A stretch of 64,000 nt of DNA. It comes from Actinokineospora diospyrosa. Its GTDB lineage: Bacteria > Actinomycetota > Actinomycetes > Mycobacteriales > Pseudonocardiaceae. The notes below the pieces were generated by a model, which saw nothing but the letters and a program-made list of their open reading frames with translations, made no database searches and was not told the origin of the DNA. The position numbers were made by a program, and so were the translations under genes. Each line of letters begins with the position of its first letter. Position 1 is the first letter of the stretch. Of this stretch, positions 10,661 through 44,203 are shown one piece after another. The DNA is taken from positions 372,001 through 436,000 of the forward strand of contig NZ_JAMTCO010000001.1 in assembly GCF_024171925.1 (NCBI RefSeq). The letters run 5' to 3'.

Positions 10661-10877
10661 GGGGGCGGGCAGGTCCCAGCGAATGCCGGGTGTTCAGCGG
10701 TCGGTCAGGTGGGTGGGGCGGCCCTGGTGGGCTTTCCTGCAGTTGGGTGGCTGAGCGGGTGGTGACGCCCGATGGGGGGTGGGGTGGGGGGAATGGCGGA
10801 CGTGGGGGTGGGGCGGTGGGTAGCATCGGTCGGCCTTGGAGTGGCTGGCTGGTGTGGGGGAGAGGGGCGGGTGCGGG

Positions 10878-22272: not shown

Positions 22273-22325
22273 CGCGCTCCCATCCGCCCGTGCTCCACTC
22301 AAGCTCTTGCGCTACCGGCCGCCGA

Positions 22326-22559
22326 TCACCCTGACGCGCCGCCCGACAGCGAGCTCTGGTGCGCCTGATAGCGGTCGGGCACCGCGGCGAGCCTGCCGAG
22401 CACCCCGGCCAGCGACTCCCGCAGCACGCACTCCGGCAGCGCGGCGAGCTTCGCGAAATCGATATCGGAAACGTCGAGCAAGTGTGAGCGCAACACGCCC
22501 GATTCCACCGGACCCGAATCCGCGGACGCGGTGTCCGGCGCGATCCCCGAACCGTCCAT
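22326..22559 (-). CDS. fxsA: FxsA-like RiPP precursor peptide with atypical C-terminus
   Basis: 77 residues from ATG 22559 (AAGGGG ribosome site). The leader has the conserved FxsA pattern SGVLRSHLLDVSDIDFAKLAALP followed by a Leu-rich helix. FxsA peptides normally end in FxSxx. This one instead ends in a tail with R-Y-Q-A-H-Q-S-S-L (63-71) and then SGGASG. The aromatic-x-Ser motif is replaced by H67-Q68-S69, preceded by Y64-Q65-A66. FxsB enzymes join an aromatic ring to the third residue of such motifs, so these are the likely modification sites (inference). It lies 53 bp upstream of fxsT and is divergent from fxsB. Confidence 0.75.
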   Translation of the reverse strand: MDGSGIAPDTASADSGPVESGVLRSHLLDVSDIDFAKLAALPECVLRESLAGVLGRLAAVPDRYQAHQSSLSGGASG

Positions 22560-22776
22560 CCGCACCCCCTTCGGCGAACGCCGCTCGACGTTCGACCCGT
22601 CCGAGCCCCCGATCGGGTGGCCTACTTCCCCGACCCTATCGGCCGGTGCGTTGCGCTGTGCCCGTGCGGGCCGAAGATACACCGATCAGCCGACACCCCG
22701 ACCCGCCGCCGCCGTGTTACATGGAACGGGAAACCCGGTCGGGGCCACCGGGGGTGGACGGGGACGGGGAGCGCAG

Positions 22777-23901: not shown

Positions 23902-25061
23902 CGGTCGAACCAACCCAGCACGCGGTGTCCGAGGAGCTCTTCGACGACTTGGCCGCTGGTGGTGGAGGTGAGGCTGCCGCCAGGCTCTTGGTGTCCGCGC
24001 GCCGCAGCCGGACCTTGTCGTTCATCCGCCTCTTGGCCAACGACAGCGAGGCGTTCGCTGTGCTGGGCGAACTGCGCCAGCACGCGCCGGACGCCGTCAA
24101 CCGCGTGTTGGATGACCCGATGGTGGGCCTATGGGCAACCGCGACCCTCTTGCGCCGCGAACGCGGTCTGGCCACCGTGGGCTGCTTGGCGCAGGTAGCC
24201 GCAGCGGCCGCGATTCGGGCGGACGTTCGGGTAAGCCTGACGCTCCCGGAAGAGATCCGCGTCTTGCCGTCCCTAGGACCAATTGATCCTGTCAGCGGTC
24301 GGGTTCGTACCGACCAACTCCGGTGGCGCCCGTTCCCCGCGCTCGTCCCGGCCCCAGGATTGCGCTGGACCTTCGGCGGCTGGCCACCCGGACTGCTGCC
24401 GGACGGCCTAGGGCTGTCGCAGGCCCCTGATCTGCCGCTCTGGGCGGAGCGCGTGACGCGGGCCTGGGAGCTGATCGCCGCCGACCACCCGGTGCTGGCT
24501 GGGGAGTTGGCGGTGGTGGTCACCGCTGTGGCGCCGCTGGACCCCTCGGACGCGGGGGAGATGAGCGCGACCGTGGGCGACGCGCTCGGGTGCGTGTTCC
24601 TGTCCCTGGGCCCCGACGCCGAATCGGTCGCGGTGACGTTGGCGCACGAGTTGCACCACGCCAAGCTCGCCGTGCTGATGGACCTGTTCCCGCTGTTCGA
24701 CGTCGACGACGACCGCCGCTTCTACGCGCCGTGGCGCACCGATCCCCGGCCCGTCGCGGGGCTGCTGCACGGCATCTACGCGCACCTCGCCATCGCGGCG
24801 TTCTGGCGTCGGCGCAGGCAGGTGGCCGAGAGCTCTCGAGCGCACCAAGAGTTCGCCCGGTGGCGCACCGCGACATGGTCGGCGAGCCAAGACCTGCTTA
24901 CGAGCGGCGCGCTGACACCACTGGGCTATAGGTTCGTTGAGCGGATCAGCGCGCAGGTGCAAGGTTGGCTTACCGAGTCGGTACCTGCTGCGGACCTAAG
25001 AGCCGCTACCGAGCTCCTGGCTGAGCACCGCGGTCGCTGGTCTAGGGGACCGGCGGCATAA
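23898..25061 (+). CDS. HExxH-type peptide beta-hydroxylase candidate (FxsA-associated)
   Basis: 387 residues from GTG 23898, translationally coupled to fxsB. The hallmark is [10 protein letters not shown] with H250-E251-x-x-H254, inside an otherwise helical protein. This matches the family long listed as 'HEXXH motif domain, FxsA-associated' and now regarded as alpha-ketoglutarate-dependent peptide hydroxylases. Expected role: beta-hydroxylation of a residue in the precursor after or before cyclophane formation. [25 protein letters not shown] is the other conserved block (positions about 275-300). The 3' end overlaps the convergent antiporter gene by 20 bp. Confidence 0.8.
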
Positions 25062-27429: not shown

Positions 27430-28149
27430 TCAGCCGGGTAGGAGGTCCGCCGCGTGGTTGAGCAGGCGGTCGTAGACCGAGGGGTCGTCTGAGTCGATCA
27501 CTGGGAAGCCGGTGCCGAAGTCGCCGTTAAGCCATCTGGCGGATACGCCTGGGTTGGCTTCGTTAGTGCCGTCGTACAGGAAGACGTGAGGGCTGCAGTT
27601 GACCCTGCCTTCGCCCGCTATCGCGAACTGGTCCATCACCGTCCGGCGGGCTCGACCGTCGTCCAGAGCCTCTGCCAGGGCGGACACGTCCACCGCGCCC
27701 GTCTCCTTCGCTACGTCGAGGATGACGTGACGCATTGAGATGGTTCTGCCTTCGGCCCAGAACGCCCATCGCAGGGCCCGATCCAGCGCCTCGCTAGCGG
27801 CAAGGCCCTGCGCTTTAGCCGCTTGGACCGCCTCCAACGCGGGCAGCGTCGTCACCGGGTATGTCCAGTCTGGCCCCTGCCACAGTCGCCAGCCCGCGTC
27901 CGGCGCCAAGGCCCCCACTACGGCTATCTCCGAGTCCACCCCCGGCCGTTCGTTGACCGAGTGGTTGAACAGTTCCAGCGGGAACGCCCGGTGGTCGAAC
28001 CACAAGCGCCCCTCTAGTCCCAACCGGCGCCGTGTTTCGTGCAGCCGGTAGACCCCTAGATGGGCGAACGAGCAGTTCAGGTCCGTGAAGACCACCACGG
28101 CGTTCGGGCTCTCAGGCAGCCGCGGGTCCTTACGCGGGTCGACCGTCAT
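27430..28149 (-). CDS. DsbA/FrnE-family thioredoxin-fold oxidoreductase
   Basis: 239 residues from ATG 28149, overlapping the end of the MarR gene (ATGA). VVVFTDLNCSFAHLG shows the DsbA-family active-site loop with a single Cys26 (C-S-F-A instead of CPxC). VNCSPHVFL supplies the cis-Pro loop. Without the second Cys it is more likely a glutathione/mycothiol-dependent isomerase or reductase than a disulfide oxidase (inference). Cytosolic: no signal peptide. Likely regulated by the co-transcribed MarR gene, together with the divergent rhodanese gene. Confidence 0.75.
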   Translation of the reverse strand: MTVDPRKDPRLPESPNAVVVFTDLNCSFAHLGVYRLHETRRRLGLEGRLWFDHRAFPLELFNHSVNERPGVDSEIAVVGALAPDAGWRLWQGPDWTYPVTTLPALEAVQAAKAQGLAASEALDRALRWAFWAEGRTISMRHVILDVAKETGAVDVSALAEALDDGRARRTVMDQFAIAGEGRVNCSPHVFLYDGTNEANPGVSARWLNGDFGTGFPVIDSDDPSVYDRLLNHAADLLPG

Positions 28150-28631
28150 GTCTCCTCCTTCGCTGGGTCGCAGGCGCCCGGACGGTGGGCGTGGGCGACC
28201 TTGAGCAGGGCGGCGGCGGTGACCTGCTTCTCGTCATCGGTCAGGTGGGCGGCGAAGTGCTTCTCGATGCCACCTAGGTACACCGGGACGGTCTTGCGGA
28301 AGGCAGTCCTGCCTTCATCAGTTAGCACCGCCCAGACCACTCGACGGTCCTGGCCGTCGGTCTCCTTGCGCACCAGCCCGGCCGCCGCCATCTCGTCGAC
28401 GAGCCTGCTCACGCGGGTGCGGCTGAGCACCACCCGGTCGGCCAGGTCGCGCATGCGCAGCCCCGGGGCCTCGGCGGCCTGGAGTTCGAGCAGGACGTCG
28501 TACCAGGTGAGCGGGACGGTGCCCGCCCGGTCGAGTTCGGCCTCGATCGCGCGCAGGGCCGCGTTGTACGCGAGCAGCACGGACCGCCACGCCTCGATGC
28601 CGAGTTCGTCGGTGCGCAGTGGGAGTCGCAT
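28146..28631 (-). CDS. MarR-family transcriptional regulator
   Basis: 161 residues from ATG 28631. A winged-helix DNA-binding domain is clear: LRMRDLADRVVLSRTRVSRLVDEMAAAGLV for the helix-turn-helix and DGQDRRVVWAVLTDEG for the wing. A TACACT -10-like box ends 6 bases before the ATG, implying a leaderless transcript. Longer starts in the intergenic operator are rejected. Operon with the DsbA-like gene; divergent from the rhodanese gene. Two GTGCG/CGCAC palindromes lie in the shared promoter, fitting autoregulation by a thiol- or oxidant-responsive MarR (inference). Confidence 0.85.
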   Translation of the reverse strand: MRLPLRTDELGIEAWRSVLLAYNAALRAIEAELDRAGTVPLTWYDVLLELQAAEAPGLRMRDLADRVVLSRTRVSRLVDEMAAAGLVRKETDGQDRRVVWAVLTDEGRTAFRKTVPVYLGGIEKHFAAHLTDDEKQVTAAALLKVAHAHRPGACDPAKEET

Positions 28632-28636
28632 GCGTC

Positions 28637-28692
28637 GAGTGTAAGCGATTGCGTGCGTCCGCACATATCTGTTATGGTGCGTGCAGACGCAC
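28637..28692. promoter_or_regulatory. Divergent promoter with two MarR-type operators
   Basis: On the plus strand TTGCGT (28649-28654), an 18-bp spacer and TATGGT (28673-28678) form a promoter for the rhodanese gene. Palindrome GTGCG-TC-CGCAC lies at 28653-28664 and GTGCGT-N4-ACGCAC at 28677-28692, so they would cover the spacer and the start site. On the minus strand TACACT (28643-28638) serves marR. Confidence 0.6.
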
Positions 28693-28715
28693 ATTTATCC
28701 AGAAGGGGGCCCGCC

Positions 28716-29042
28716 ATGGCTCGCGTCATCGACACCGACGAGGTCAAGCAGCGCATCGACGCCGGTTCGGCGGTCGTGCTGGAGGCGCTACCGCACTCCT
28801 ACTACGCCGAGGCCCACCTGCCCGGCGCACTCAACCTGCCGCTCGACGACGTCGAGGACCGCGCGGCCGCGCTCATCCCGAGCAAGGACGCCGAGGTGAT
28901 CGTGTACTGCTCGGACGACACCTGCGCCAACTCCGGCATCGCGGCCGACCGGCTGGTGGAACTGGGCTACACCAACGTCTTCAAGTACACCGCGGGCAAG
29001 CGGGACTGGGTCGGCGCCGGGCTGCCCACCGAGACCGATTAG
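28716..29042 (+). CDS. Single-domain rhodanese-like sulfurtransferase
   Basis: 108 residues from ATG 28716 with AGAAGGGGG upstream. Typical rhodanese elements are present: LPGALNLPLDDV, then the active-site loop VIVYC65SDDTC70ANS and the C-terminal YTAGKRDWVGAGLP. Cys65 is the persulfide-carrying residue. Its divergent partner genes are a MarR regulator and a thioredoxin-fold protein, suggesting a small thiol/sulfur-stress response unit. Confidence 0.85.
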   Translation: MARVIDTDEVKQRIDAGSAVVLEALPHSYYAEAHLPGALNLPLDDVEDRAAALIPSKDAEVIVYCSDDTCANSGIAADRLVELGYTNVFKYTAGKRDWVGAGLPTETD

Positions 29043-29245
29043 TGGCTCGACTCAGAACGTTGGCCGTGTATCGGCGGGTCCACGGCGTGGCCGGCAAGGC
29101 GCCGCAACGTCCTCGTACTGGATGTACTTGGGCGCTTCCGGCAACGCCGCCAGGCGCGTCGTGGGCGGGTCGAGACACGGTCGACGTTCTGGGTCGCGCC
29201 ACTAGTCACCCGTTCGAGCGCGAGAACCACACTGGAGGGATATCC

Positions 29246-29857
29246 ATGACCAACACCGAGTCAACCAGCGCGGGCGCGACGTCAACCAGCGCGGGCGCGA
29301 CCCGGGTCGTCGGCGGCGTCGAGCTGCCCGCGGCGGGCGTCTGGAAGATCGACCCCGGCCACGCCGAGGTCGGGTTCATCGGCAGGCACTTCATGCTGAC
29401 CAAGGTCCGCGGCCGGTTCACCGGTGTCGATGGCGCCGTCACCGTCGCCGAGCGGCCCGAGGACAGCGCCGTCCTGGTCACCATCGACATGACCTCGGTC
29501 ACCAGCGGCGACCAGACCCGCGACGACCACCTGCGCTCCGACGACTTCTTCGACGTCGCCGCGCACCCCACCGCCACCTTCAGCTCGACGTCGGTGTCCT
29601 GGATCGGCTCCGGTGGCGTCCTCGACGGCGAGTTGACCATCAAGGGCGTCGCCCGGCCGGTCTCGCTCAAGGTCGAGCACCTCGGCGTCGTGCGCGACCC
29701 GTGGGGCAACGACCGCGCGGTGTTCTCCGCCAAGGGCCGGATCAACCGCGAGGACTGGGGCCTGAGCTGGAACATGGTGCTCGAAGCAGGCGGCATCCTG
29801 GTCTCCAAGGAGATCGACCTGGAGCTCGAGGTCGAACTGGTCCGCGAGACCGCCTGA
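29246..29857 (+). CDS. YceI-family lipid-binding-like protein
   Basis: 203 residues from ATG 29246 with TGGAGGGA 6 bases upstream. The YceI lipocalin-like fold is seen in WKIDPGHAEVGFIGRHFMLTKVRGRF, DDHLRSDDFFDVAAHPTATF and LTIKGVARPVSL (positions about 35-60, 95-115, 135-150). An N-terminal Ser/Thr/Ala-rich stretch contains a direct repeat TSAGAT. No signal peptide. Family members bind isoprenoid or other hydrophobic ligands. A strong terminator follows, so it ends the unit that starts with rhodanese or forms its own. Confidence 0.85.
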   Translation: MTNTESTSAGATSTSAGATRVVGGVELPAAGVWKIDPGHAEVGFIGRHFMLTKVRGRFTGVDGAVTVAERPEDSAVLVTIDMTSVTSGDQTRDDHLRSDDFFDVAAHPTATFSSTSVSWIGSGGVLDGELTIKGVARPVSLKVEHLGVVRDPWGNDRAVFSAKGRINREDWGLSWNMVLEAGGILVSKEIDLELEVELVRETA

Positions 29858-30478: not shown

Positions 30479-31666
30479 GTGAACACCGTGCCCGCCACCG
30501 CTGAGGTGTTCTCGACCGGGTTAGTGGACCTGACCCAGCACGAGATCCAGGCGCTCAAGACCGAGTTCAACCTGGCCGACGCGCACACCCACCAGCGCCA
30601 GTCACCCAGCCAGCGCGCGATCGTCGCCCGGCTGCCGCAGTTGTGGTACGAGGCCGAGGACGGCAAGCAGGCCGACCACGAGCGGCGGTTCACCGACGCG
30701 TTCTTCCGGCTGCACGGCCAGCACACCGCCCGCACCCTCGACCGGACCCTGCTGTCCTACGCGGCGTCCGTCTCCACCCTGGTCGCCGCCCTCTACCTCA
30801 AGCGGCACCGGATGTCGGTCTCGCTCATCGAGCCGTGCTTCGACAACCTGCACGACGTGCTCGGCAACGTCGGCGTCCCGCTGTACCCGGTCGACGAGTC
30901 GCTGCTGGCCGACGTCGGCTCCATCTACGACAACCTCGCCGCGCACGTGCGCACCGACGCGCTGTTCCTGGTCGACCCGAACAACCCGACCGGCGCCACC
31001 CTGCTGCGCCACGGCAGTCGCGGGTTCGCCGAGGTGCTGCGGTTCTGCCGCGACCACGACAAGGTCCTGCTGCTCGACTTCTGCTTCGCCGCGTTCACCC
31101 TGTTCGACGACGAACTCGAGCGCTTCGACGTCTACCGGATGCTCGAGGACTCCGGCGTCTCCTACATCGCGCTGGAGGACACCGGCAAGACCTGGCCGGT
31201 GCAGGACGCCAAGTGCGCGCTGCTCACCAGCAGCCGCGACATCTGGCTGGACGTCTACAACATCCACACCAGCGTCCTGCTCAACGTCTCGCCGTTCGTG
31301 CTGACCATGCTCACCCAGTACATAGAGGACTCCGCCGCGGACCGGATGGCCTCGGTCCGCTCGGTGCTCGACACCAACCGGCGGACCGCGATCCGCGCGT
31401 TGGCCGGGTCGCCGCTGCTCTACCAGGAGCCGGTCGCGAAGGTGAGCGTCGCGTGGTTCCGGGTGCTGTCTCCGCTGTCGACGGCCACCCGGCTGCAGAA
31501 CCTGCTCGCCGACGAGGACCTGTACCTGTTGCCGGGCAGGTACTTCCACTGGAGCGAGCCCAGCCGGGGCGAGGAGTTCGTGCGGCTGGCGCTCGCGCGC
31601 GACCCGGGCATGTTCGCCCAGGCCATGACCCGACTGCGGTCCGTCCTCGACGCCCACACCCGATGA
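30479..31666 (+). CDS. rohP: PLP-dependent arginine oxidase/hydroxylase (MppP/RohP-like)
   Basis: 395 residues from GTG 30479 with GGGGGAGGA upstream. It is a fold-type I aminotransferase-like enzyme with NNPTG (168-172) and the PLP lysine in EDTGK (Lys237). The N-terminus [22 protein letters not shown] and the stretch [16 protein letters not shown] resemble MppP of enduracididine synthesis and RohP of azomycin synthesis. Those enzymes use O2 to convert L-arginine to 4-hydroxy-2-ketoarginine. First gene of seven, each overlapping or nearly touching the next. This is the committed step of the cluster if the pathway assignment holds. Confidence 0.85.
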
Positions 31667-32178
31667 CGGGGGCACTCCTGGTCCGCTCGGCCGAGTTCGT
31701 CGACGCCACGCTGTTCATGGGCATGCACAGCGCCGACGAGCGGATCCGCCGTGCCTGCAAGGGGTTCTTCGTCGACCGGCTCGCGACCGGTGTGGTGATG
31801 AGCCTGGAACAGGTCGGCCGCTGCGACGACATCGTGTGGTCCTACCCGCGCGAGGTCCAGGACGCCTACTACCCGTTCATGGACAACCTGCACACCGACA
31901 TGGCCGTCGCGCGCGTCGGCTACACGGCCGAGGACCTCGCCAGGGCGCTGGAGGCGATCACCCTGGCCCACCTGCCGCTGGCCGTCCGGTTGACCCTGGG
32001 CCAGGCCATCGGCCGGGGCGGCACGCTGTTCACAGTGGACACCCGGTACCCGGTGAGCGCGGCGGTGCGGGGGCCGGAGCCGGTCGAGGTGGAGCCGCGG
32101 TTCCCGGACGGGCTCGAGCGGCTCTACCGCGAATCGCTGGCACTGCGGGTGGACGACGTCGCCCGCGGAGGGTGGTGA
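31663..32178 (+). CDS. rohQ: RohQ-like protein, candidate 2-aminoimidazole-forming cyclase
   Basis: 171 residues from ATG 31663, ATGA overlap with rohP. Helical and soluble, with no common catalytic motif; [25 protein letters not shown] is the most distinctive block (about 27-52). In the azomycin pathway as I recall it, an otherwise unannotated small protein cyclises guanidinoacetaldehyde to 2-aminoimidazole. Gene size and position between the RohP- and RohR-like genes fit that protein. The assignment rests on context more than on motif. Confidence 0.6.
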
Positions 32179-32185
32179 GCCCGAG

Positions 32186-32974
32186 GTGGAGTGGCTGCGC
32201 CCGGGAGTGATCGTCCCGCTCGTCACACCGGTCACGACCGGCGGTCTGGTGCCCGAAGTGGACCTCGATCGGCTGATCGGTCGGGTGGCCGACGATGTCG
32301 TGGCGCTGATCCCGGGCTTGAGCACCGGCGAGGGCTGGGCACTCGACGACCAGCAGTGGGTGGCCGCGGTGGCCCACACCGTCGCCCACGCCCGAGGGCT
32401 GCCCGTCCTCGCCGGTGTGCAACGACCCGGCACCGCCGAGATCGTCGCCCGGGCCGCCCGGGCGGTCGCCCTCGGCGCCACCGCCGTCGTGGTACCCACC
32501 CCCAGCGGCCCGGAGATCACCCAGGACGAGATGTACGACCACTACGTGGCGGTCACCTCGGCGATCCCCGCCCCCGTCATCGTCTACCACGAGTCGATGG
32601 TGTCGGGAAACCTGCTCGACCCGGCCACACTGGCGCGAGTGTCCGCATTGGACCAGGTTGTCGCCGTGAAGGACTCCGCGGGTGACCCGGAAGCCACCCG
32701 GGCCCTGCTGGCCACCTCGCCCCCGGTCGGGGTGTGGCAGGGCCACGAGCACCTGGTCGAACACACCCCGGGCGTCGACGGGTACGTCCTGGCCTTGGCG
32801 AACCTGGAGCCGCGCTTGTGCGCCCGCCACTTCGCGGGCCACGCCGACCCGGCCGAGCTGGACGCGGCATGCGCCCGCTACCGGCTCACCGAGCCGGACT
32901 GGTACCGCCACGTGAAAGCCCACCTCTGCCGCCAAGGCGTCCTCTCATCGGCAGCGACTGTGGAGGAATCATGA
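32186..32974 (+). CDS. rohR: DapA-family retro-aldolase (RohR-like)
   Basis: 262 residues from GTG 32186, 7 bases after the previous stop. TIM-barrel dihydrodipicolinate synthase/N-acetylneuraminate lyase family, with VIVYHES (Tyr134) and the Schiff-base lysine VAVKDSAGD (Lys162). Shorter than typical DapA (~290), as is usual in this subgroup. In azomycin synthesis the corresponding enzyme cleaves 4-hydroxy-2-ketoarginine to pyruvate and guanidinoacetaldehyde. Coupled to the next gene by an ATGA overlap. Confidence 0.8.
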   Translation: MEWLRPGVIVPLVTPVTTGGLVPEVDLDRLIGRVADDVVALIPGLSTGEGWALDDQQWVAAVAHTVAHARGLPVLAGVQRPGTAEIVARAARAVALGATAVVVPTPSGPEITQDEMYDHYVAVTSAIPAPVIVYHESMVSGNLLDPATLARVSALDQVVAVKDSAGDPEATRALLATSPPVGVWQGHEHLVEHTPGVDGYVLALANLEPRLCARHFAGHADPAELDAACARYRLTEPDWYRHVKAHLCRQGVLSSAATVEES

Positions 32975-33834
32975 CCGCTGTTGACCTGTCCCGGCTGCGT
33001 ACGGGTGATCGTCCGCCGCGAGATCTGTTCCTGGACAATCGAACTGTGCCGGATGCTGCGCGCTATGCGCGGATCGAGGCCGCCGAGACCGACTGGATTG
33101 TGCCCCTGGTGGCTCGGATCACCGCGGAGACGCCACCCCTGGCGAGCCGGCCGGAGTGGGTCGGGGCGCTGGCGGAGATGCTCGATCAGGAGCGTGGCGG
33201 GGCACCGAGTAGTCGGTACTTGGCTGAAGAGGCGACCGTGGAGCAGTTCGCCGTTGTGGTCGAGGAGTTCGCGCCGGATGGGTTGACCGAGGCGCAGAAC
33301 TTCTTCCCGGCGGTGGCGCGGTTGCCGATCCGGGCGCAGATGGCGGTCATGCGGGTGATGATCGACGAGTTCGGGTGCGGGAACATCGGGCAGGCGCACT
33401 CGCAGCTCTACCGGCTGTTGCTCGCCGAGCTCGGCCTGCCGACCGAGCTGCCAGAAGTCCTGCGCGACACCAATGACGAGACCTACCACTTCCTGAACTC
33501 GTTCTACTGGATGGCCTCGCGAGCGCGAGATGTGGAGTACTTCCTGGGCGCCCTGGCCTACCTGGAAGCCGCGATCCCCGACGCTTTCGCCTTTCAGGCG
33601 CGGGCTTGTGAGCGGCTCGGGGTCGCCAACGGCCGCTACTACACCGAGCACATCCACATCGACGACTTCCACATGCGGGAGATGCAGACCGCGATCAAGG
33701 AGTACGAGGCGGCGCTGGGCGTCGACCCGACCAAGTTGTTGGTCGGCGCCAAGTTGCTGTCGTCGCTGCTCGGCGCCGCCATGGACGCCGCGGTGGACAA
33801 GGCCGTGCGCGTGGCCGCGGGGAGCGCGCGGTGA
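32971..33834 (+). CDS. rohS: Heme-oxygenase-like diiron N-oxygenase (RohS-like)
   Basis: 287 residues from ATG 32971 with TGGAGGAATC upstream. The HDO ligand pattern is complete: E133-F-G...H143 (Glu to His spacing 10, as in SznF), Glu199 or Glu189, and H227-x3-D231-x2-H234. Such enzymes bind a transient diiron site and oxidise amines or guanidines. In the azomycin pathway this would oxidise 2-aminoimidazole to 2-nitroimidazole. Downstream Rieske protein overlap (GTGA) supports a dedicated electron donor. Confidence 0.82.
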   Translation: MTAVDLSRLRTGDRPPRDLFLDNRTVPDAARYARIEAAETDWIVPLVARITAETPPLASRPEWVGALAEMLDQERGGAPSSRYLAEEATVEQFAVVVEEFAPDGLTEAQNFFPAVARLPIRAQMAVMRVMIDEFGCGNIGQAHSQLYRLLLAELGLPTELPEVLRDTNDETYHFLNSFYWMASRARDVEYFLGALAYLEAAIPDAFAFQARACERLGVANGRYYTEHIHIDDFHMREMQTAIKEYEAALGVDPTKLLVGAKLLSSLLGAAMDAAVDKAVRVAAGSAR

Positions 33835-34094
33835 ACGAGCCGGTCATCCGCCAACCGTCGATGGACGAGGTGGTGATCACAGTGGGGGAGCGGGAGTTCC
33901 GGATCGCCGCCGAGTGTCCACACCGGAAAGGGCGACTGGTGCACGCGCACGTCAACCCGCGCACCCTGCGGATCACCTGCCCGCTGCACAAGTCGGTGTT
34001 CGACCTGGCCACCGGCTGCCGGGTCGCGGGTCCGGTCAGCGGCGACCTGCCGGTGACCGAAGGGCAAGCACAACGGGGAGAGACTCGACGATGA
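33831..34094 (+). CDS. Small Rieske [2Fe-2S] ferredoxin
   Basis: 87 residues from GTG 33831. Ligands C29-P-H31 and C50-P-L-H53 are spaced as in Rieske ferredoxins, within GEREFRIAAECPHRKGRL and ITCPLHKSVFDL. The domain fills almost the whole protein. Most likely it passes electrons to the diiron oxygenase encoded immediately upstream. It probably corresponds to the small Rieske component of azomycin clusters, but I am not sure of the gene letter. Confidence 0.82.
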   Translation: MNEPVIRQPSMDEVVITVGEREFRIAAECPHRKGRLVHAHVNPRTLRITCPLHKSVFDLATGCRVAGPVSGDLPVTEGQAQRGETRR

Positions 34095-35113
34095 GCCAGA
34101 CGTACTCCGCCGAGGAGGTGTGGCTGCCCGCCTCGGAGCTGATCGCGGACTGGGATTCCGGTTTCCACGACCTGCTCCTGGGCGACCGGCTGCGGATGAG
34201 CGCCTACGCCGAGGCGATCGCCGAGGTGGTCCGGCCCGGCGCGACGGTGCTCGACCTGGGTACCGGGACCGGGATCCTGGCCCGGTGGGCGCTGGAGGCG
34301 GGCGCGTCGCGCGTCTACGGCCTCGACTTCGCTGAAACAGTCCTGGCCACCGCGGCGGCCCGGCTCGCCGAGGCCGGGTTCGGGGACCGGTTCGTGCCGG
34401 TAGCGGGGCTGTCGTTCGACGTCGCGCTGCCCGAGCGGGTGGACGTGATCATCTCGGAGACCCTGGGCAACCTGGTCGACAACGAGGGCTGCGGGACGAT
34501 CCTGGCCGACGCGCGGCGCAGGTTCCTCGCTGACGGAGGGGTCGTGCTGCCCATCTCCGCGCAGTGCTACCTGGCGCCTGTCGCCGCGTTGACCGCGCAC
34601 GGCCGGGTGGCCGCGGGCGAGGTCCACGGTGCGCGCGCCGTCGCGGGCAGCGACCTGGGGTTGGCCGCGCGCGACCCGTTCACGCTCTACTACGACACCA
34701 TCATCCCGATCGCGACGCACCTCGCCTCACCGCGCGCGGTCACCACGCACACCTTCGGTGACGAACCCATCTCGCCAGCTTCTGTGTCCACTCCGTACAC
34801 AGTTCGCCGCGATGGGGTGTTCACCGGGTTCAAGGGGTACTTCGTGTCCACATTGTCACCCTCGATCGCGCTGGACCTGTCCGGCGACGACATCGACGCC
34901 GGATCCACTTCAGACAGCTGGAAGCACGCGTACCTGCCGGTGCGGGAACCGGTCGAGGTGCGCCAAGGGGATCGGCTGGTGCTGGACTTCGGCTGGACCC
35001 CGCGCGGGTCGCTGGGCAACGACTACCGGTGGAGCGGCCGGGTGCTGCGCCGCGGTGAGGTGGTCGCCACGTTCGACCACGGCACGGCGAGCCTGGTGGG
35101 AGGTGCGGCATGA
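34091..35113 (+). CDS. PRMT-type SAM methyltransferase with guanidine-binding double-E loop
   Basis: 340 residues from ATG 34091, ATGA overlap. Motif I VLDLGTGTG (53-61) and YGLDF give the SAM site. The loop ISETLGNLVDNEG places Glu123 and Glu132 nine residues apart, exactly the spacing of the double-E loop that clamps the guanidinium in protein arginine methyltransferases. A C-terminal beta-barrel-like half follows (about 150-340). In this arginine-derived pathway the substrate is probably arginine itself or a cyclic guanidine such as 2-aminoimidazole (inference). I do not recall this gene in the minimal azomycin set. Confidence 0.75.
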   Translation: MSQTYSAEEVWLPASELIADWDSGFHDLLLGDRLRMSAYAEAIAEVVRPGATVLDLGTGTGILARWALEAGASRVYGLDFAETVLATAAARLAEAGFGDRFVPVAGLSFDVALPERVDVIISETLGNLVDNEGCGTILADARRRFLADGGVVLPISAQCYLAPVAALTAHGRVAAGEVHGARAVAGSDLGLAARDPFTLYYDTIIPIATHLASPRAVTTHTFGDEPISPASVSTPYTVRRDGVFTGFKGYFVSTLSPSIALDLSGDDIDAGSTSDSWKHAYLPVREPVEVRQGDRLVLDFGWTPRGSLGNDYRWSGRVLRRGEVVATFDHGTASLVGGAA

Positions 35114-38100
35114 GCGAGTCCCGTGTCCGTGAATACGACGTCGTCGCACTGCGGGTTCCCGTCGCCTACAACAGCTTCGGCGACCACGACCGCCATGGCG
35201 CGTTGTACGTCCTCGCCGAGAACGCGCCCGCGCTGCGCGAAGTGGCCCAGACCTGGCCCGATCCGTTCCCCAGCTTCCTCACCGACCCGGACCTGGTGCC
35301 CAAGCCGCACCCGCTCGCCGTGCCGCTGGTGTTGCGCGCCAGGCGCGGCGAGCGCGTGCGGGTGCGGCTGACCAACGAGCTGCCCCGGCCGGTCGGCATC
35401 ACCGCGCAGGGCGTGCGCTACGACGCCCGCCGCCACGACGGCCTGGAGGCGGGGGCGAACCCCGACACCTCGGTGCAGCCCGGCGACTCGCGGGTGTACG
35501 AGTGGCTGTGCGAGCACGAGGGCGTGTTCCACTTCGGCGACATGGCCGACGTGCGCGGTGAGGGCACGCAGAGCCACGGCCTCAACGGGGCGCTTGTGGT
35601 CGAGCCGCGCGACGCGACCTGGACCGACCCGCGCACCGGCGGCCCCCTGGCCAGTGGCATCTCCGCCGATGTGCACACGCCGGGGCGCAGCTTCCGCGAG
35701 CACGTGATCGTGATGATGGAGTACCCGAGCAACGACAACCCGGTCACCCCACCCGTGGCGCACGACCACGGCGGTCACGGCGCGCCGATGCTGTCCGGCC
35801 AGGCGCCGTTCGCGCTGCCGTCGGATGAGCGACCGGATGACATCGGTGACCTGGAGCCGGTCAGCAATGCGATGCTGCCGGTGAACTTGCGCATCGAACC
35901 GCTGGGGTGGCGCCAGTACGTCTACAACCAGCTGCTGGAGCAACACCGGCTGGATCCGTTGCGCGATGCGCAGACCGGCGAGGAGTTGCACCACAGCTCC
36001 TGGGTGTACGGCGACCCGGCGACCCCGGTGTTCTTCGGCTACCGGGGTGACAACGTTGTGCTCCGCCTGCTGCACGGCGGCATGCGGGACACGCACGTCT
36101 TCCACACGCACCTGCACCAGTGGCGGGTCGACCCCGACGACGACCGGTCGCCGCTGGTCGACTCGGTCAGTTTCGGCCCGCAGCAGGGGTTGACGCTGGA
36201 CCTGGTCGGTGGTGCGGGCTCGGTGCAGCACGCGGTCGGCGACGCGGTGTGGCACTGCCACCTCTACCCGCACTTCCACATGGGCATGTGGGGCCTGCTG
36301 CGCGCGTTCGACACCCGGCAGGACGGGTCCGGCCGCTACCCCGACGGCACGGTGATCGAAGCGCTGGTTCCCTTGCCGGGCAACGATCCGCCCGCTCCCA
36401 CGACCGAGCGGCCGGGCTGGCCCGCGTTCATGCGAGAGGCGGCCACGTTCCCGCAGAAGTCGCCCCGGCCGCCGCGCACCCCTGGCATGCCCGCCGGGAT
36501 GGGGCGCGAACCGACGTCGTTGGAAGCGGCGGCGTTCGTGCCGGACGCGCAGCCGGGTGAGGCGTTCACCAAGGTCGGGCCCGCTGACGCGCCGGTGCGC
36601 CGGTACCACCTGGTCGTCACCTCGGCGACGATCGTGCACACCGGTGACCCGCACGACCACCACCGTCCACTGTGGCATGACCACAATGGACACTTCTTCG
36701 CGCTGCACTCCGATGTCGATGCGGCGGGCGGGATCGAGGAGTTCCGGCGACAGGTCAACGCGGGGGAGCGGACTGTCGAGCCGCTGGTGATCCGGGCGCG
36801 CAAGGGCGAGGTCCTGGAGATGACGCTGACCAACGGGTTGCCCACGGGGGCGCGCGAGGGCAGTGCGTTCGACCCGCCGCTGCCGTTCCAGCCCGAGTGC
36901 GGTCTGCATTCGCACCTGGTCAAGTACGACCCGCTGGTGTCCGACGGCGCCTGCATCGGGTGGAACTACCTGTCCGCGACGACCACCGCGGACCTGCACG
37001 ATCCCGGGGCCGACGGGTACCGGTCATGGGTCTTCCGTTGGTATGTGGACGAAGACTTCGGCACGGTGCTGTTCCACGACCATCTTTTGCCCAACTACCG
37101 CCAACGGCACGGCCTCTACGGCGTGCTCGTCGCCGAACCGGAGGGCGCGCGGTGGGTCGACCCGGCCGACCACAGCCGGGAGTTGCCCTCGGGGAGCCAA
37201 GCCGTGGTGCTGCTGGCGGACGGGTCGGCCGTTCGGGAACAGGTCCTCGCGGTGGCCGACTTCGTCCCCGCGTTCGAACACACCGCCCACGGCCACGGCG
37301 GCGCGATCAACCCACCGCCATCGCCCGGCAGCATGGACGAACAGGGCGTCATGGCCGTCAACTACCGCGCCGAACCGCTGGACCTGCGCGGCGGCGACCC
37401 GGCGGACTGGTTCGCCACCGAGGTCCACGGCGACCCGACCACACCGCTGCTGCGCGCGTACCCGGGTGAGCGGATCCGCATTCGGTTGGTGGACGGGTCT
37501 TTCGACAAGCAGCACAGCTTCACCACGCACGGCCTGCGCTGGCGCGAATGGCCCGATCGCGCCGACACCCCGTGGCGCTCCCAGCAGACCCTGGGTGTCT
37601 CCAACGCCGCCGACCTGCACTTGGAGCCCACGGCTGGTCCTGGTGACCACCTCTGGTCTTTCGCGGCGGCCGACGATCTGTGGCTGGGCTGCTGGGGCTT
37701 GATCCGCGTGCACGACGGCCCACGTGACGACCTGCCCGCGTTGCCTGGTGTCAGGTCCGCTGCTTTGCCCGCCCGAAGCCAGGTTCGCCGCTATACGGTG
37801 CGAGCTCGGGCGCGGACTCTGGAATATAGCGGGGAACGGTATGATCCGTACGGTTTGGTGTATGAAGTGGATGGTGTGCCATTCACCGGTCCGCTGGTGT
37901 TGCGGGCCAGGGCGGGCGAATGGGTGGCCGTGACGTTGATCAACGAACTCGACGGTCCACCACCGGCCAGCGAGTTCGATCCCGTCCTCCTCACCCGCGA
38001 CATCCCCGGCCGCCGCACCGTGTCCGGCCGCGTCTCGCTCCACCCCGTCGGCCTGCGTTACGACACCGCACTGCACGACGGCACCCGCGTCGGCACGAAC

Positions 38101-38760
38101 CCGGACAGCACCGTCAAACCCGGCGGCACGCACACATACTGGTGGCACACCGACGAACCAGGCGTCGTCCTACTCCGCGACCACGCCGACCCGATCACCC
38201 ACCTCCGCCGAGGCCTCATCGGCGCCCTCGTCGTCGAACCCGCCGACTCGACGCCCGAATCCTGGACCGGCACCCAAACCCGCCTCCGCCGCCCGGGCAA
38301 GCCCGCCACCGTGGAGCAGGTGCTCATCACCCAAGACGCCCTCCGCCTCTACCACGACGGCGACCTCACCCAACCCGTCCGAGACCTGGTGTCCGAGGCC
38401 AAGGACGACCTCGGCCAGAAGGCGTACAACTACCGCTCCGCCCACCTCCACCCGGTCAGCCCCTCCCTCGCCGACCACACCCCGCCGACGCCGCTGGTCC
38501 GGGCCAAGGTGGGGCAGGAGGTCGTGCTCCACCTGGCGGTCGCGGGCTCCCGGATCCGAAACCAGGGCTTCACCATCCACGGCCAAACCTGGCCCCTCAC
38601 CGACCACGGCCCGCACGTCTCCACCCTGGGCGCCCTAGCCTCCGGCGCGACCCGCACCATCCGCTTCACCCCCCACCACCCCGGCGATTACGTGTACCGG
38701 ACTCCCAACCTCCACTGGGGTGTGAGCGAGGGCTGGTGGGGCTTGATCCGAGTGACCTAG
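35110..38760 (+). CDS. Giant multicopper oxidase with six cupredoxin-like domains (MnxG-like)
   Basis: 1216 residues from ATG 35110 (ATGA overlap), about the length of the bacterial Mn oxidase MnxG. It shows three tandem two-cupredoxin units, each beginning with a VLRARxGExVxVxLxNEL-type strand set (about 75, 555 and 935). Copper motifs: HVFHTHLHQW (near 328), WHCHLYPHFHMGMWG (near 380; the HCHxxxHxxxM type-1/type-3 signature), FHDH (near 655) and FTIHGQTW (near 1155). There is no signal peptide, so it would be cytosolic or exported with a partner. Last gene of the operon; probably an oxidative tailoring enzyme or a detoxifying metal/phenol oxidase. Confidence 0.8.
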   Translation: MSESRVREYDVVALRVPVAYNSFGDHDRHGALYVLAENAPALREVAQTWPDPFPSFLTDPDLVPKPHPLAVPLVLRARRGERVRVRLTNELPRPVGITAQGVRYDARRHDGLEAGANPDTSVQPGDSRVYEWLCEHEGVFHFGDMADVRGEGTQSHGLNGALVVEPRDATWTDPRTGGPLASGISADVHTPGRSFREHVIVMMEYPSNDNPVTPPVAHDHGGHGAPMLSGQAPFALPSDERPDDIGDLEPVSNAMLPVNLRIEPLGWRQYVYNQLLEQHRLDPLRDAQTGEELHHSSWVYGDPATPVFFGYRGDNVVLRLLHGGMRDTHVFHTHLHQWRVDPDDDRSPLVDSVSFGPQQGLTLDLVGGAGSVQHAVGDAVWHCHLYPHFHMGMWGLLRAFDTRQDGSGRYPDGTVIEALVPLPGNDPPAPTTERPGWPAFMREAATFPQKSPRPPRTPGMPAGMGREPTSLEAAAFVPDAQPGEAFTKVGPADAPVRRYHLVVTSATIVHTGDPHDHHRPLWHDHNGHFFALHSDVDAAGGIEEFRRQVNAGERTVEPLVIRARKGEVLEMTLTNGLPTGAREGSAFDPPLPFQPECGLHSHLVKYDPLVSDGACIGWNYLSATTTADLHDPGADGYRSWVFRWYVDEDFGTVLFHDHLLPNYRQRHGLYGVLVAEPEGARWVDPADHSRELPSGSQAVVLLADGSAVREQVLAVADFVPAFEHTAHGHGGAINPPPSPGSMDEQGVMAVNYRAEPLDLRGGDPADWFATEVHGDPTTPLLRAYPGERIRIRLVDGSFDKQHSFTTHGLRWREWPDRADTPWRSQQTLGVSNAADLHLEPTAGPGDHLWSFAAADDLWLGCWGLIRVHDGPRDDLPALPGVRSAALPARSQVRRYTVRARARTLEYSGERYDPYGLVYEVDGVPFTGPLVLRARAGEWVAVTLINELDGPPPASEFDPVLLTRDIPGRRTVSGRVSLHPVGLRYDTALHDGTRVGTNPDSTVKPGGTHTYWWHTDEPGVVLLRDHADPITHLRRGLIGALVVEPADSTPESWTGTQTRLRRPGKPATVEQVLITQDALRLYHDGDLTQPVRDLVSEAKDDLGQKAYNYRSAHLHPVSPSLADHTPPTPLVRAKVGQEVVLHLAVAGSRIRNQGFTIHGQTWPLTDHGPHVSTLGALASGATRTIRFTPHHPGDYVYRTPNLHWGVSEGWWGLIRVT

Positions 38761-40138: not shown

Positions 40139-43100
40139 CTACAACTGGTCCGTCTCCTTGCGCGGCTGCGGCGCCGAAGGCATGGCGTTGCGCCGCAGGA
40201 CCGCTTCCAGTTGTTCCCGGCGGAGCGGCTTCGTCAGGAAGTCGTCCATCCCTACGTCTCGGCAGCGTTTCTCGTCGGAGGCCAGTGCGGAAGCCGTCAA
40301 GGCGATCACCGGTACCTGGTTGCGCGGCGCGGGCAGTTGGCGGATCTGGGTCGTTGCCTGGTATCCGTCCAGGATGGGCATTTGGCAGTCCATCAGCACG
40401 ACGTCGTAGTCGCCGGTGCTGACCATGTTCAGTGCTTGCTCGCCGTTCTCCGCGATGTCCGCGCTGTAGCCGAGGGTGCTCAGCATCTGCACCACGACCT
40501 GCTGGTTGATGTCGTTGTCCTCCGCCACCAGCACCCGTCCGGCAGTGGGTCGGTCCGCGGGGATCACCGGTCGCGGGGGAGGTGTTTCCTGTTGGGGCAC
40601 AACAGGTCCGACCGCGAGCAGTCGGCCCAGCGCGTCCCGCAGCGCCGCGGCGCGGATTGGTTTGGCCAGGTAGACGTCGACGCCCATGCGGCGGACGCGG
40701 CGGGCTTCTTCGGCGTCGTTGGTGGAGGTGAGGATGCCGAGGCGGGGGGCGCCGGTGGTGTGGTCGGCCTGGATCCGGGCGACCAGTTGGATCCCGTCGA
40801 GGTCCGGCATCCGCATGTCCAGCAGGGCGGCGTCGAACGGTTGGCCCGCCTCGGTCGCCGCGCGCAGGACGGCCATCGCCTCGGCGCCGGTGGACGCGGT
40901 GGCGACCTCGGCGCCCCAGGTGCGCAGGAGTTGGGAGACGATCTGCAGGTTGGTGGCGTTGTCGTCGACCACCAGGATCGCCGCGCCGGAGACGGCGCCG
41001 CTGGGGCGGGTCGAGGGCAGCGGGGCGGTCGCGGGGGCCAGCGGGAGGGTGAAGTGGAAGGCGCTGCCCTTGTCCGGGGCGCTGCGCATGCCGATGGTGC
41101 CCTCCATCAGGTCCACCAGCTGCCTGCAGATCGCCAGGCCGAGGCCGGTGCCGCCGTATCGCCGGGTGGTGGACACGTCGACCTGGGTGAACGCGTCGAA
41201 CAGGTGCTCCTGGCGGTCCTCCGGCACGCCGATCCCGGTGTCGGTGACGGTGAAGGTGACCGGGTGGCGGCCGTCGGCGTCCGGTGCCGGGATGGACACC
41301 CACACCACGACCTCGCCAGCCGGGGTGAACTTGATCGCGTTGGACACCAGGTTGATCAGCACCTGCCGGATCCGGTGCGCGTCGCCGTGCAGGGCGGGCG
41401 GGATGGCCGGGTGCACGACCGCGGCGATCTCCAGGCCGGGCTTGCGCGCGGTCGGGGCCAGCAGGCTGACCACGTCCTCGACCAGCGCGCGCGGGTCGAA
41501 GTCGACCGGGTCGATCTCCAGCTTGCCCGCCTCCATCTTGGAGAAGTCCAGGATGTCGCTGATGACCTCCAGCAGCGCGTCCGCCGAGCGCTGCAGCGTG
41601 GACACGTAGTCGCGCTGGCGCTGGTCGAGCTCGGTGTCCAGCAGCAGGGTGGCCAGGCCGAGCACGCCGTTCATCGGGGTGCGGATCTCGTGGCTCATGT
41701 TCGCCACGAACGCCGACTTCATCCGCGACGCGGTCAGCGCCTGGTCGCGGGCGTCGGCCAGGTCGCGCTCGTTCTGCTTGCGCTCGGTGATGTCGCGCAC
41801 GAACGCGCTGAACACCAGCTCGTCCTCGTCCCCGGAGCGCCACATGGTCAGCTCGGCCGGGAACACCGACCCGTCCCGGCGCTGGGCGAGCACCTCGCTG
41901 GTGGTCCCCAGCAGGTGCGGCTGCCCGCCGTCGACGATCCGGCGCACCCCGGCGACGTGCGCCTCCTTCGCCTCGGCTGGCACGACCAGCTCCACCAGCG
42001 GTACCCCGAGCGCCTCGGCCGCGGTCCAGCCGAAGATCGTCTCCGCCCGGGCGTTCCAGTAGGACACCCGGCCGTCCGGGCGCATGGAGATGAACGCGTC
42101 GCCCGCCGCGTGCAGGATCGCCCGCACCTGCTCACCCCGCGCCGCCAGCCGCACCTCGGCCAGCCGCTTGCGCCGCTCGTTGCGCGCGGCCAGCACCAGC
42201 GCGCCCAGCAGCACCTGCACGATGAGCGTGGTGATCGCGATGATGCGCCCGGTGAGCATCGCGGTGCCCGCGTACGCCTGCGTCGCGTCGACCCGCGCCA
42301 CCACCGCCCAGCCCAGCGCGGGCGCGGGCCGGTAGCTGGACTGGTACTCGGTCTCCCCCACGGTGCTGGTCGTCGACCCGCTCATCCCGCGCAGCCCCGC
42401 CTCGATCCCGGCGAACCCCAGCGCCGAGGTCAGGCCGGGCGCGGTGTCGTCGCCGACGACGTTGCCGCGCGCGTCGGACACCACCAGGTCCACGTCCTGC
42501 GCGTTGGACACCCGGTCGACCAGGTCGGTCAGCGGCCCGACCGGGTAGCTCACCGCGAGCACCCCCAGCAGGTGGCCCCGCCCGTCGGTGACCGGGGCCG
42601 ACACGGCGATGACCTCGGGGTGGCCGAGCACGGCGGACTCGAAGGTGTTGGAGACGTACGGCCTGCCGCGCCGCACCGCGCCCTGGAAGTAGTCGCGGTC
42701 GGCGAAGTCGGTGCCCTGCACCGCGAGCGTCGACGGGGCCATGGTGATCAACCGGCCGTTGGCGTCGAGCGCCCACGCGGCCAGGAACGGCGGCCGCTGC
42801 TCCTGCAACGACCGCACCGCCTCGGCCACCGCCGGTTCGGTCGCGGTGGAGGTGAACGCGGCCGCGCGCAGGCTCGGCCGTTGCGCGTAGGCGTTGACCA
42901 GCGACCCGATCCCGCTCAACCGGTCGTCCAACTCCGCGGCGACCGCGTCGGCGCTGTGCGCGAGCCTGCGGTCGATCTCGCCGCTGGTCATCCCGGTGGC
43001 GACGCTGATGGAGACATACGCCAGCAGCACCACCGGCAGCAGCGCCAGCAGCACGAACCCGGCGCACAGCTGGGTCAGCCGTTTGCGCAACTCCCGGCGC

Positions 43101-43951
43101 AGCACCGGATCGGTGCGCACCTCGCGGTGCGAGACCGACAGCCTCAGCAGCAGCAGCGCGGTCACCACCAGCGAGCCCGCCGCGATCACCACGATGTCGC
43201 GGGTGGTCGCGTGGGAGGCGCGCAGCAGCAACACCACCGGCAGCAGCACCACGCACACCGTCAGCGTGACCTCTTTGGCCCACCGGAAGCCCCGCTGCAG
43301 CTTGCGCAGCCGCGATTCCAACCGCGCCGAGACCAGCACCGCGCCCGACAGCAGCACGCAGCCGAGCTGACCGCCCAGCCCCGCGCGCAACAGCACCGCG
43401 TACAGCAGCCAGGAACCCGCCCAAGCCAACAACCACGTCGACGCCCGCCACCCCGAGTGCGCGAACCCGGCCGCCATCCCGGCGAACACCGGGACCCACA
43501 ACCACAGCGGCGTCGCCGGTCCGGCACCGGGCACCGTCCACACCAGAGCGCCCGCGGCGACGGCGACCACGCAGGCGTCGAGGACCGACACCACCCCCGG
43601 TCGCCCGCGCACCGCGCCGAGCAGGATCACCGCGCCGATCGCCGGGACGGCCGCCGGGGCGAGCAGGGCGTCGTCGACCGCCCACGCCGCGGTGGCCAGC
43701 GCCTGGGTGAGCAGCAGCGGTCCCCAGGGCCCGCGCCAGTCCCGGTCCTTGGCCATGATCGCCAGCGCGTCCACCCCGAGCAGCGCGAACACCAGCGCGA
43801 CCCGCGCCCCGTCGCTGGGCAGCAGCACGGCGACCACCACCGCGAGCCCGTGCAGCAGGACCCAGGTCCACTGCAGCCCGCGCACCCGCTTGAGCGGTGA
43901 TGCTTTCACCACCCGAGCGTGCGCCAAGCCCGCCTGCACGGCAGGTGACAT
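40139..43951 (-). CDS. Membrane hybrid sensor histidine kinase with two receiver domains
   Basis: 1270 residues from ATG 43951; GTG 43975 is an alternative. Order: eight or nine hydrophobic helices (about 20-290), a dCACHE-like extracellular sensor with FADRDYFQGAVRRGRPYVSNTF (about 330-560), another TM, PAS (about 590-720), HisKA with the phospho-His in SHEIRTPMNG (near 752), HATPase with NLVSNAIKF and GTGLGL, then two REC domains (ILVVDDN near 992 with LLDMRMPD; VLVAEDN near 1137 with LMDCQMPI). No output regulator is encoded beside it, so phosphotransfer goes elsewhere. Confidence 0.88.
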   Translation of the reverse strand: MSPAVQAGLAHARVVKASPLKRVRGLQWTWVLLHGLAVVVAVLLPSDGARVALVFALLGVDALAIMAKDRDWRGPWGPLLLTQALATAAWAVDDALLAPAAVPAIGAVILLGAVRGRPGVVSVLDACVVAVAAGALVWTVPGAGPATPLWLWVPVFAGMAAGFAHSGWRASTWLLAWAGSWLLYAVLLRAGLGGQLGCVLLSGAVLVSARLESRLRKLQRGFRWAKEVTLTVCVVLLPVVLLLRASHATTRDIVVIAAGSLVVTALLLLRLSVSHREVRTDPVLRRELRKRLTQLCAGFVLLALLPVVLLAYVSISVATGMTSGEIDRRLAHSADAVAAELDDRLSGIGSLVNAYAQRPSLRAAAFTSTATEPAVAEAVRSLQEQRPPFLAAWALDANGRLITMAPSTLAVQGTDFADRDYFQGAVRRGRPYVSNTFESAVLGHPEVIAVSAPVTDGRGHLLGVLAVSYPVGPLTDLVDRVSNAQDVDLVVSDARGNVVGDDTAPGLTSALGFAGIEAGLRGMSGSTTSTVGETEYQSSYRPAPALGWAVVARVDATQAYAGTAMLTGRIIAITTLIVQVLLGALVLAARNERRKRLAEVRLAARGEQVRAILHAAGDAFISMRPDGRVSYWNARAETIFGWTAAEALGVPLVELVVPAEAKEAHVAGVRRIVDGGQPHLLGTTSEVLAQRRDGSVFPAELTMWRSGDEDELVFSAFVRDITERKQNERDLADARDQALTASRMKSAFVANMSHEIRTPMNGVLGLATLLLDTELDQRQRDYVSTLQRSADALLEVISDILDFSKMEAGKLEIDPVDFDPRALVEDVVSLLAPTARKPGLEIAAVVHPAIPPALHGDAHRIRQVLINLVSNAIKFTPAGEVVVWVSIPAPDADGRHPVTFTVTDTGIGVPEDRQEHLFDAFTQVDVSTTRRYGGTGLGLAICRQLVDLMEGTIGMRSAPDKGSAFHFTLPLAPATAPLPSTRPSGAVSGAAILVVDDNATNLQIVSQLLRTWGAEVATASTGAEAMAVLRAATEAGQPFDAALLDMRMPDLDGIQLVARIQADHTTGAPRLGILTSTNDAEEARRVRRMGVDVYLAKPIRAAALRDALGRLLAVGPVVPQQETPPPRPVIPADRPTAGRVLVAEDNDINQQVVVQMLSTLGYSADIAENGEQALNMVSTGDYDVVLMDCQMPILDGYQATTQIRQLPAPRNQVPVIALTASALASDEKRCRDVGMDDFLTKPLRREQLEAVLRRNAMPSAPQPRKETDQL

Positions 43952-44203
43952 CACCCGACAGAGTGAGACATTCACACCGTGAGGCGCGGTGCGGGTGATG
44001 TCCCACCTAGCCGGTCCGCCGTCCAGGGGACCACACTCGCCTGCCCGGTGGTGGTCAACACCAGGACTCCACCCGAGGAGGTGACGGTTCGCCGGGGTCA
44101 CCGTTCGCGCGTTCGGGCAGCTCAGGGCTGCGTTCCCTGTCACATGGACCCGAACGACGTAGCGGTGTAAGCAGGAGCCAACCCGAAGACTGGAGAACCC
44201 GAG

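Follow-up and report, generated by a model that had tools for sequence, protein, structure and literature searches.

The stretch of DNA analysed here, 64,000 nucleotides from Actinokineospora diospyrosa (contig NZ_JAMTCO010000001.1, positions 372,001 to 436,000; genome of 8.1 Mb on 29 contigs) and in the following called the window, carries at 30479–38760 a run of seven plus-strand genes, of which the first five are, judged by their sequences, the rohPQRST core of the biosynthesis of azomycin (2-nitroimidazole), a natural antibiotic from which the nitroimidazole drugs descend. The locus is probably an azomycin biosynthesis cluster of the type found in one of two actinobacterial clades of the N-oxygenase RohS, here named clade A, and synthesis of azomycin by it is very likely. 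It represents a genuine azomycin-type cluster of a recurrent, extended form, whose core is, by its sequence, almost certainly functional. New is that, in a set of 45 loci, a gene for a methyltransferase resembling protein arginine methyltransferases (PRMT) is present throughout one RohS clade and serves as its marker, that a gene for a giant multicopper oxidase is nested within this clade, and that a DsbA-like redox protein is a companion of nearly all loci. An original prediction, made from the letters of the window, had described the seven genes as joined by ATGA/GTGA overlaps or a 7-bp gap, and both coordinates and junctions were confirmed (five of the six junctions are 4-base ATGA or GTGA overlaps, one is a 7-base gap).

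The 45 loci compared are that of the window, 13 found in a contig scan with RohQ, 29 further places in Streptomyces and two from the order of the window's organism. In this order 3 of 298 genomes, the window's included, contain RohQ, and so do 30 of 392 genomes of Streptomyces, there at 32 places; among 72,556 plasmid records it had no match. The order P-Q-R-S-T, whose comparison with known clusters the original prediction had proposed, is identical in the other 44 loci, the Rieske match of one of them (L013 from S. diastatochromogenes) being a 31-residue fragment for which a looser threshold was needed. This recurrence of the five genes exceeds what is expected by chance. In the S. diastatochromogenes locus the match to rohR (10548–11320) is split into two overlapping pieces, for which a frameshift or a sequencing error is possible.

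All seven protein families that had been named in advance hold in the PDB and Pfam matches. The best solved relative of the pyridoxal phosphate (PLP)-dependent RohP is RohP from S. cattleya (PDB 6c3a, E = 2e-179), with which 261 of 383 aligned residues are identical (68%), followed by MppP (E = 5.5e-62); it thus does not group with unrelated aminotransferases. Its score is below the NCBIfam cut-off for MppP (176.6 of 450 bits), and the PLP-binding lysine K237 is kept in 45/45 loci. The protein encoded from 31663, whose similarity to RohQ was to be checked, matches both RohQ entries in the PDB (9c5w, E = 1.5e-25; 9oq8, E = 1.6e-25) and the Pfam family DUF6190 (PF19689, E = 4.1e-65). RohR belongs to the DapA family (DHDPS, PF00701, E = 8e-25), occupies the same operon position in all 45 loci and keeps in each of them the Schiff-base positions Y134 and K162. 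RohS matches PbrRohS (PDB 9pfx, E = 3.3e-51) and SznF from streptozotocin biosynthesis (E = 3e-11), with which it has the diiron ligand set in common, RohS lacking the cupin domain. The ligands are complete, as predicted: E107, E133, H143, E199, H227, D231 and H234, kept in 45/45 loci and counted along the SznF alignment from what we take to be the SznF ligand numbering. The 3H/4C ligand class is treated in the available text of PMC13108848. RohT shows a Rieske match (PF00355, E = 5.2e-7) with both ligand pairs, CxH and CxxH, the two cysteines and two histidines being kept in all 44 aligned copies. In its five genes, their order and the inspected catalytic and metal-binding residues the window agrees with the rohPQRST clusters of Streptomyces, Kitasatospora and Pseudomonas.

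The reactions of RohP, RohR, RohQ and RohS are established for homologues from elsewhere (PMC10724926, as far as available), and the product of S. cattleya RohP is described in the part of PMC7497351 at hand. We infer that the four enzymes of the window act as their homologues do. RohP would then convert L-arginine with O2 to 4-hydroxy-2-ketoarginine, RohR would cleave the latter to guanidinoacetaldehyde and pyruvate, RohQ would cyclise and dehydrate guanidinoacetaldehyde to 2-aminoimidazole, and RohS would oxidise the amine of 2-aminoimidazole to the nitro group, its diiron centre being reduced via RohT, the presumed electron donor. With RohS from Actinokineospora terrae, Saccharothrix sp. 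and Kitasatospora azatica (KaRohS), 12.2, 15.2 and 4.2 µM azomycin, respectively, were formed from 2-aminoimidazole (Table 1 of PMC10724926). The A. terrae locus contains all seven genes in the order of the window, with 88% identity between the two RohS proteins; the contig scan found one RohS locus in A. terrae, whose tie to the assayed enzyme is by species. In Pseudomonas sp. DF41 deletion of rohPQRST abolishes azomycin formation (PMC12713392, partial text). The loci of A. terrae, A. globicatena and A. inagensis share with the window the same eleven genes in the same order and on the same strands, the seven of the run and four upstream of it, and differ from it in sequence only (RohS 81–88%, oxidase 77–85% identical).

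In a tree of the 45 RohS sequences, one branch with a support of 100/100 separates the 23 loci with a PRMT-like gene (clade A) from the 22 loci without (clade B); the program warned of long branches meeting. The split persists after addition of PbrRohS and SznF (support 93/94) and is present in all 200 bootstrap trees. The Pseudomonas RohS could not be placed between the clades; it sits on a very long branch (2.97) and in no starred set. The PRMT-like gene is thus found in 23/23 clade-A and 0/22 clade-B loci. Close copies of it (at least 55%) are present in 11 of the 15 roh genomes that were searched, the four without being those of clade-B loci L005, L010, L013 and L014; at the remaining clade-B loci its absence was judged on the fetched stretches. 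The oxidase gene is present in 14 of the 45 loci, all within the 23 of clade A and always together with the core and after the PRMT-like gene, and its distribution inside clade A needs at least three changes on the RohS tree. Genome-wide the oxidase is absent from 7 of the 15 searched roh genomes (L005, L010, L012, L013, L014, G008 and G065), and its absence at clade-A loci L079, L080, L082, L083, L084 and L088 was judged on stretches of about 18 kb. Of the view that the locus is an azomycin cluster with two extra genes, the azomycin pathway stood, whereas the two extra genes are shared with other loci, the PRMT-like gene occurring in 23 and the oxidase gene in 14 of the 45 loci, including one in S. 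eurocidicus.

The best PDB match of the PRMT-like protein is a plant PRMT (E = 1.8e-22), with PRMT4.2 and PRMT6 at about 1e-20. The similarity extends over the S-adenosylmethionine (SAM)-binding domain, and the C-terminal barrel is weakly matched. The residues D55, G57, G59 and G61 of SAM motif I and the glutamates E123 and E132 of the double-E loop, both elements being common to PRMT4.2 and PRMT6, are present in 23/23 copies and W277 of a THW-like loop in 22/23. Among 394 genomes of the class, only the window's own has such a protein at E ≤ 1e-30. In PRMTs the double-E glutamates hold the guanidinium group. 2-Aminoimidazole is a cyclic guanidinium-like base and 2-nitroimidazole is not, and methylation is therefore proposed to precede nitration. 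Most likely the PRMT-like enzyme N-methylates a guanidine-like molecule of the pathway, either 2-aminoimidazole or an earlier one.

The oxidase matches MnxG (PDB 9bxa) over nearly its full length (E = 2e-194) and shares its copper motifs, a likeness of sequence only, and is far under the NCBIfam equivalog cut-off for MnxG (NF041487; 210 of 3100 bits). Twelve inspected residues of the motifs for type-1 and trinuclear copper (HxHxH, HCH...H....M, HSH and HDH) are present in all 14 copies, M393 being by motif at the position of the axial methionine of type-1 copper. In the first 40 residues no signal peptide is apparent by eye, and no MnxE or MnxF annotation is found among the named neighbours, no search having been aimed at these subunits. 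The enzyme is most likely an intracellular MnxG-like oxidase acting on an intermediate of the pathway or of a detoxification. Outside roh loci, homologues of up to 52.8% identity were found in 30 of the 72,556 plasmid records. The best of them (L018), on the Pseudonocardia plasmid pBCI1-2, is a giant multicopper oxidase that is 53% identical and adjoins an AfsR/SARP regulator, with no annotated roh genes.

The unit extends further than the original prediction assumed, which limited it to the seven genes and overlooked those for a DsbA-like, a MarR-family, a rhodanese-like and a YceI-family protein upstream of them (27430–29857). The fetched stretches contain the DsbA-like gene at 43 of the 45 loci; the two exceptions, L086 and L102, are on short contigs (19.6 and 17.2 kb), and homologues that are 72% and 52% identical are found on other contigs of the two genomes. 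A homologue of at least 55% identity is present in 29 of 30 Streptomyces genomes with RohQ versus 10 of 362 without, one of the ten being a partial match of 75 residues. MarR and YceI are each found in 21 of the 23 clade-A loci (not in L007 and L012) and the rhodanese also in 21 (not in L107 and L108), and all three in 0/22 clade-B loci, of which stretches of 13–20 kb were examined. Together the four genes most likely form a regulated module for redox and thiol protection.

The DsbA-like protein belongs to Pfam family PF01323 (E = 1.1e-9). Its model, with a predicted local distance difference test score (pLDDT) of 79, resembles the DsbA-like protein DR2335, FrnE and kappa-class glutathione transferase; the TM-scores, about 0.5–0.6, are modest. 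In a sequence search of the PDB nothing significant was found (best E = 0.39). All 43 copies have CSFAH without the second cysteine of the CxxC motif and keep C26 as well as C185, two residues before P187. Mycothiol-dependent nitroreductases of the Rv2466c type have a two-cysteine CxxC active site, and assignment of the DsbA-like protein to them was dropped because the second cysteine is absent (CSFA in 43/43). A tie of the gene to N-oxygenases in general was also tried and rejected: 20 stretches around homologues outside roh loci held no match to rohP–T or the PRMT-like gene at E 1e-3, the only hits being a weak one to MarR and a weak one to the oxidase. In seven of the 20 (L110–L112 and L114–L117) a DMT-like transporter gene and a TetR-like gene adjoin the DsbA-like homologue (families F1 and F2, by eye), the transporter having a similar counterpart near the clade-B locus L010.

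Some findings weigh against the assignment of an azomycin pathway with added tailoring steps to this locus. Of the RohS homologues assayed, that from K. viridis (KvRohS) gave a trace of azomycin and that from a Pseudonocardiales bacterium (PbRohS) none, both being closer to KaRohS (Table 1 of PMC10724926), and homology is therefore no guarantee of activity. The PDB matches of RohR are DapA-type enzymes, with no solved RohR among them for direct comparison. For the PRMT-like protein AlphaFold, run on eight sequences, gave a poor model (pLDDT 44), which offers no reliable view of the substrate pocket and entered no fold comparison. The oxidase is absent from 9 of the 23 clade-A loci, which argues against a requirement for it in product formation. 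The genome of the classical azomycin producer S. eurocidicus (G655) holds two roh loci, one of clade A with all seven genes (L006) and one of clade B (L096), and the azomycin of this species can therefore not be ascribed to the seven-gene locus by itself.

What the added genes do is proposed with more reserve than the function of the core. The methylated or oxidised product that the original prediction offered is a hypothesis, the leading ideas, put forward as such, being that 2-aminoimidazole or a related intermediate is methylated and that either the product or a toxic hydroxylamine is oxidised. Tentatively, the product of clade A may be a methylated nitroimidazole, in which case the PRMT-like enzyme would act on a ring nitrogen of 2-aminoimidazole, RohS would then yield 1-methyl-2-nitroimidazole, and the oxidase, where present, would finish or dimerise the product. 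The PRMT-like gene coincides with exactly one RohS clade, has the double-E loop in every copy and, in the window, begins within a 4-base overlap with rohT. Small-molecule arginine methyltransferases are also known from natural-product clusters, examples being SznE and a saskemycin homologue (available part of PMC12637814), and SznF with SznE presents the same pairing of a diiron N-oxygenase with an arginine methyltransferase homologue as the window, SznE being likened here by its described activity. Furthermore, a clade-A and a clade-B locus stand together in S. eurocidicus and in a second Streptomyces genome (G982, loci L092 and L087); with identical products this would be wasteful, an argument, however, from two genomes only. 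Against a methylated product speaks that RohS from A. terrae, a species with a seven-gene locus, accepts unmethylated 2-aminoimidazole (PMC10724926, Table 1). The wider proposal of two actinobacterial pathways, in which clade A leads to a methylated or elaborated nitroimidazole, or to protection against one, clade B stops at azomycin and a PRMT fold has been recruited for 2-aminoimidazole, is rather doubtful. Should the products of clade A go beyond azomycin, cultures of strains already in collections could yield a second natural nitroimidazole.

It is likewise a tentative possibility that the methyltransferase and oxidase serve self-protection rather than tailoring, the oxidase re-oxidising toxic hydroxylamine or nitroso forms that arise by reduction of azomycin, beside the MarR-controlled rhodanese, YceI and DsbA-like proteins. 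The complete copper motifs of the oxidase, the lack of an obvious signal peptide, its dispensability in nine clade-A loci and the recurrence of thiol and redox genes next to clade-A loci are consistent with such a function, as is the dependence of azomycin formation in Pseudomonas on the five genes rohPQRST (PMC12713392, partial text). However, the clade-B stretches contain neither the PRMT-like, oxidase, MarR, rhodanese nor YceI genes, yet clade-B organisms presumably need protection too, and a methyltransferase suits such a role less well. If the added genes do protect the producer, they would reveal by what means a nitroimidazole producer withstands the compound it makes.

An unlikely alternative is that the PRMT-like enzyme methylates arginine in proteins and that the oxidase is a general manganese or copper oxidase, both being carried along with the cluster. 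The best PDB relatives are indeed protein arginine methyltransferases and a manganese oxidase, and the Pseudonocardia plasmid oxidase has no annotated roh neighbours; but the PRMT-like protein is found at E ≤ 1e-30 in one of 394 genomes of the class and is strictly tied to one RohS clade, which points to the pathway, and the oxidase falls far short of the MnxG equivalog score. That the core ends at 2-aminoimidazole or branches off there, and leads to a product without a nitro group, is very improbable, since, in spite of the two close homologues with trace or no azomycin, RohS keeps all seven diiron ligands, its Rieske partner is intact and the enzyme of the nearest assayed species, A. terrae, is active (PMC10724926, Table 1).

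With regard to the published azomycin cluster, which is one of five genes (PMC12713392, partial text), the window adds the PRMT-like and oxidase genes downstream and the DsbA-like, MarR, rhodanese and YceI genes upstream. The companions, of which the DsbA-like gene is present in 43/45 loci and the PRMT-like gene in every clade-A locus seen, thus enlarge the five-gene cluster of the surveyed literature. The S. eurocidicus cluster, too, is referred to as five genes, and a methyltransferase is nowhere mentioned in the main text of that report (PMC12713392). In the literature searched there was no account of roh-flanking genes; Hedges and Ryan (2019), the founding paper, was outside its coverage and may picture them.

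Table 1. Genes of the roh locus and of the neighbouring peptide cluster in the window (aa, amino acids; aKG, alpha-ketoglutarate; RiPP, ribosomally synthesized and post-translationally modified peptide).
Feature	Position	Strand	Properties
rohP	30479..31666	+	PLP- and O2-dependent L-arginine oxidase, 395 aa; GTG start, GGAGG upstream
rohQ	31663..32178	+	cyclodehydratase, 171 aa, DUF6190
rohR	32186..32974	+	DapA-family retro-aldolase, 262 aa
rohS	32971..33834	+	heme-oxygenase-like diiron N-oxygenase, 287 aa
rohT	33831..34094	+	small Rieske [2Fe-2S] ferredoxin, 87 aa
PRMT-like SAM methyltransferase	34091..35113	+	340 aa; marker of RohS clade A
MnxG-like giant multicopper oxidase	35110..38760	+	1216 aa
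DsbA/kappa-GST-fold protein	27430..28149	-	239 aa; CSFAH in CxxC position; roh-locus companion
MarR-family regulator	28146..28694	-	PF12802, E = 2.1e-14; overlaps DsbA-like gene by 4 bases
Rhodanese-like sulfurtransferase	28653..29042	+	PF00581, E = 5e-14; real start probably near 28716
YceI-family protein	29246..29857	+	203 aa; PF04264, E = 8.8e-48
RiPP cluster TPR protein	18577-22302	-	NCBIfam match
RiPP cluster precursor	22326-22682	-	NCBIfam match
RiPP cluster FxsB radical SAM	within 22531-23901	+	NCBIfam match
RiPP cluster aKG-HExxH hydroxylase	23898-25061	+	NCBIfam match

Around the locus the GC content is even (0.67–0.71 per 2 kb, from 26 to 40 kb of the window). Scans of the locus for promoters and terminators found none of either, terminators being below the mean of shuffled sequences. 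Beside the roh locus lies, at 18577–25061 and recognized by NCBIfam matches, a cluster for an FxSxx-COOH cyclophane RiPP, and some of its open reading frames have homologues in the stretches of the three other Actinokineospora loci (families F10 and F14). After the oxidase gene, at 40139–44143 on the minus strand, follows a gene for a hybrid sensor kinase of 1334 aa with dCache, PAS, HisKA and two response-regulator domains, homologues of which are found on the same side of these three loci (family F11).

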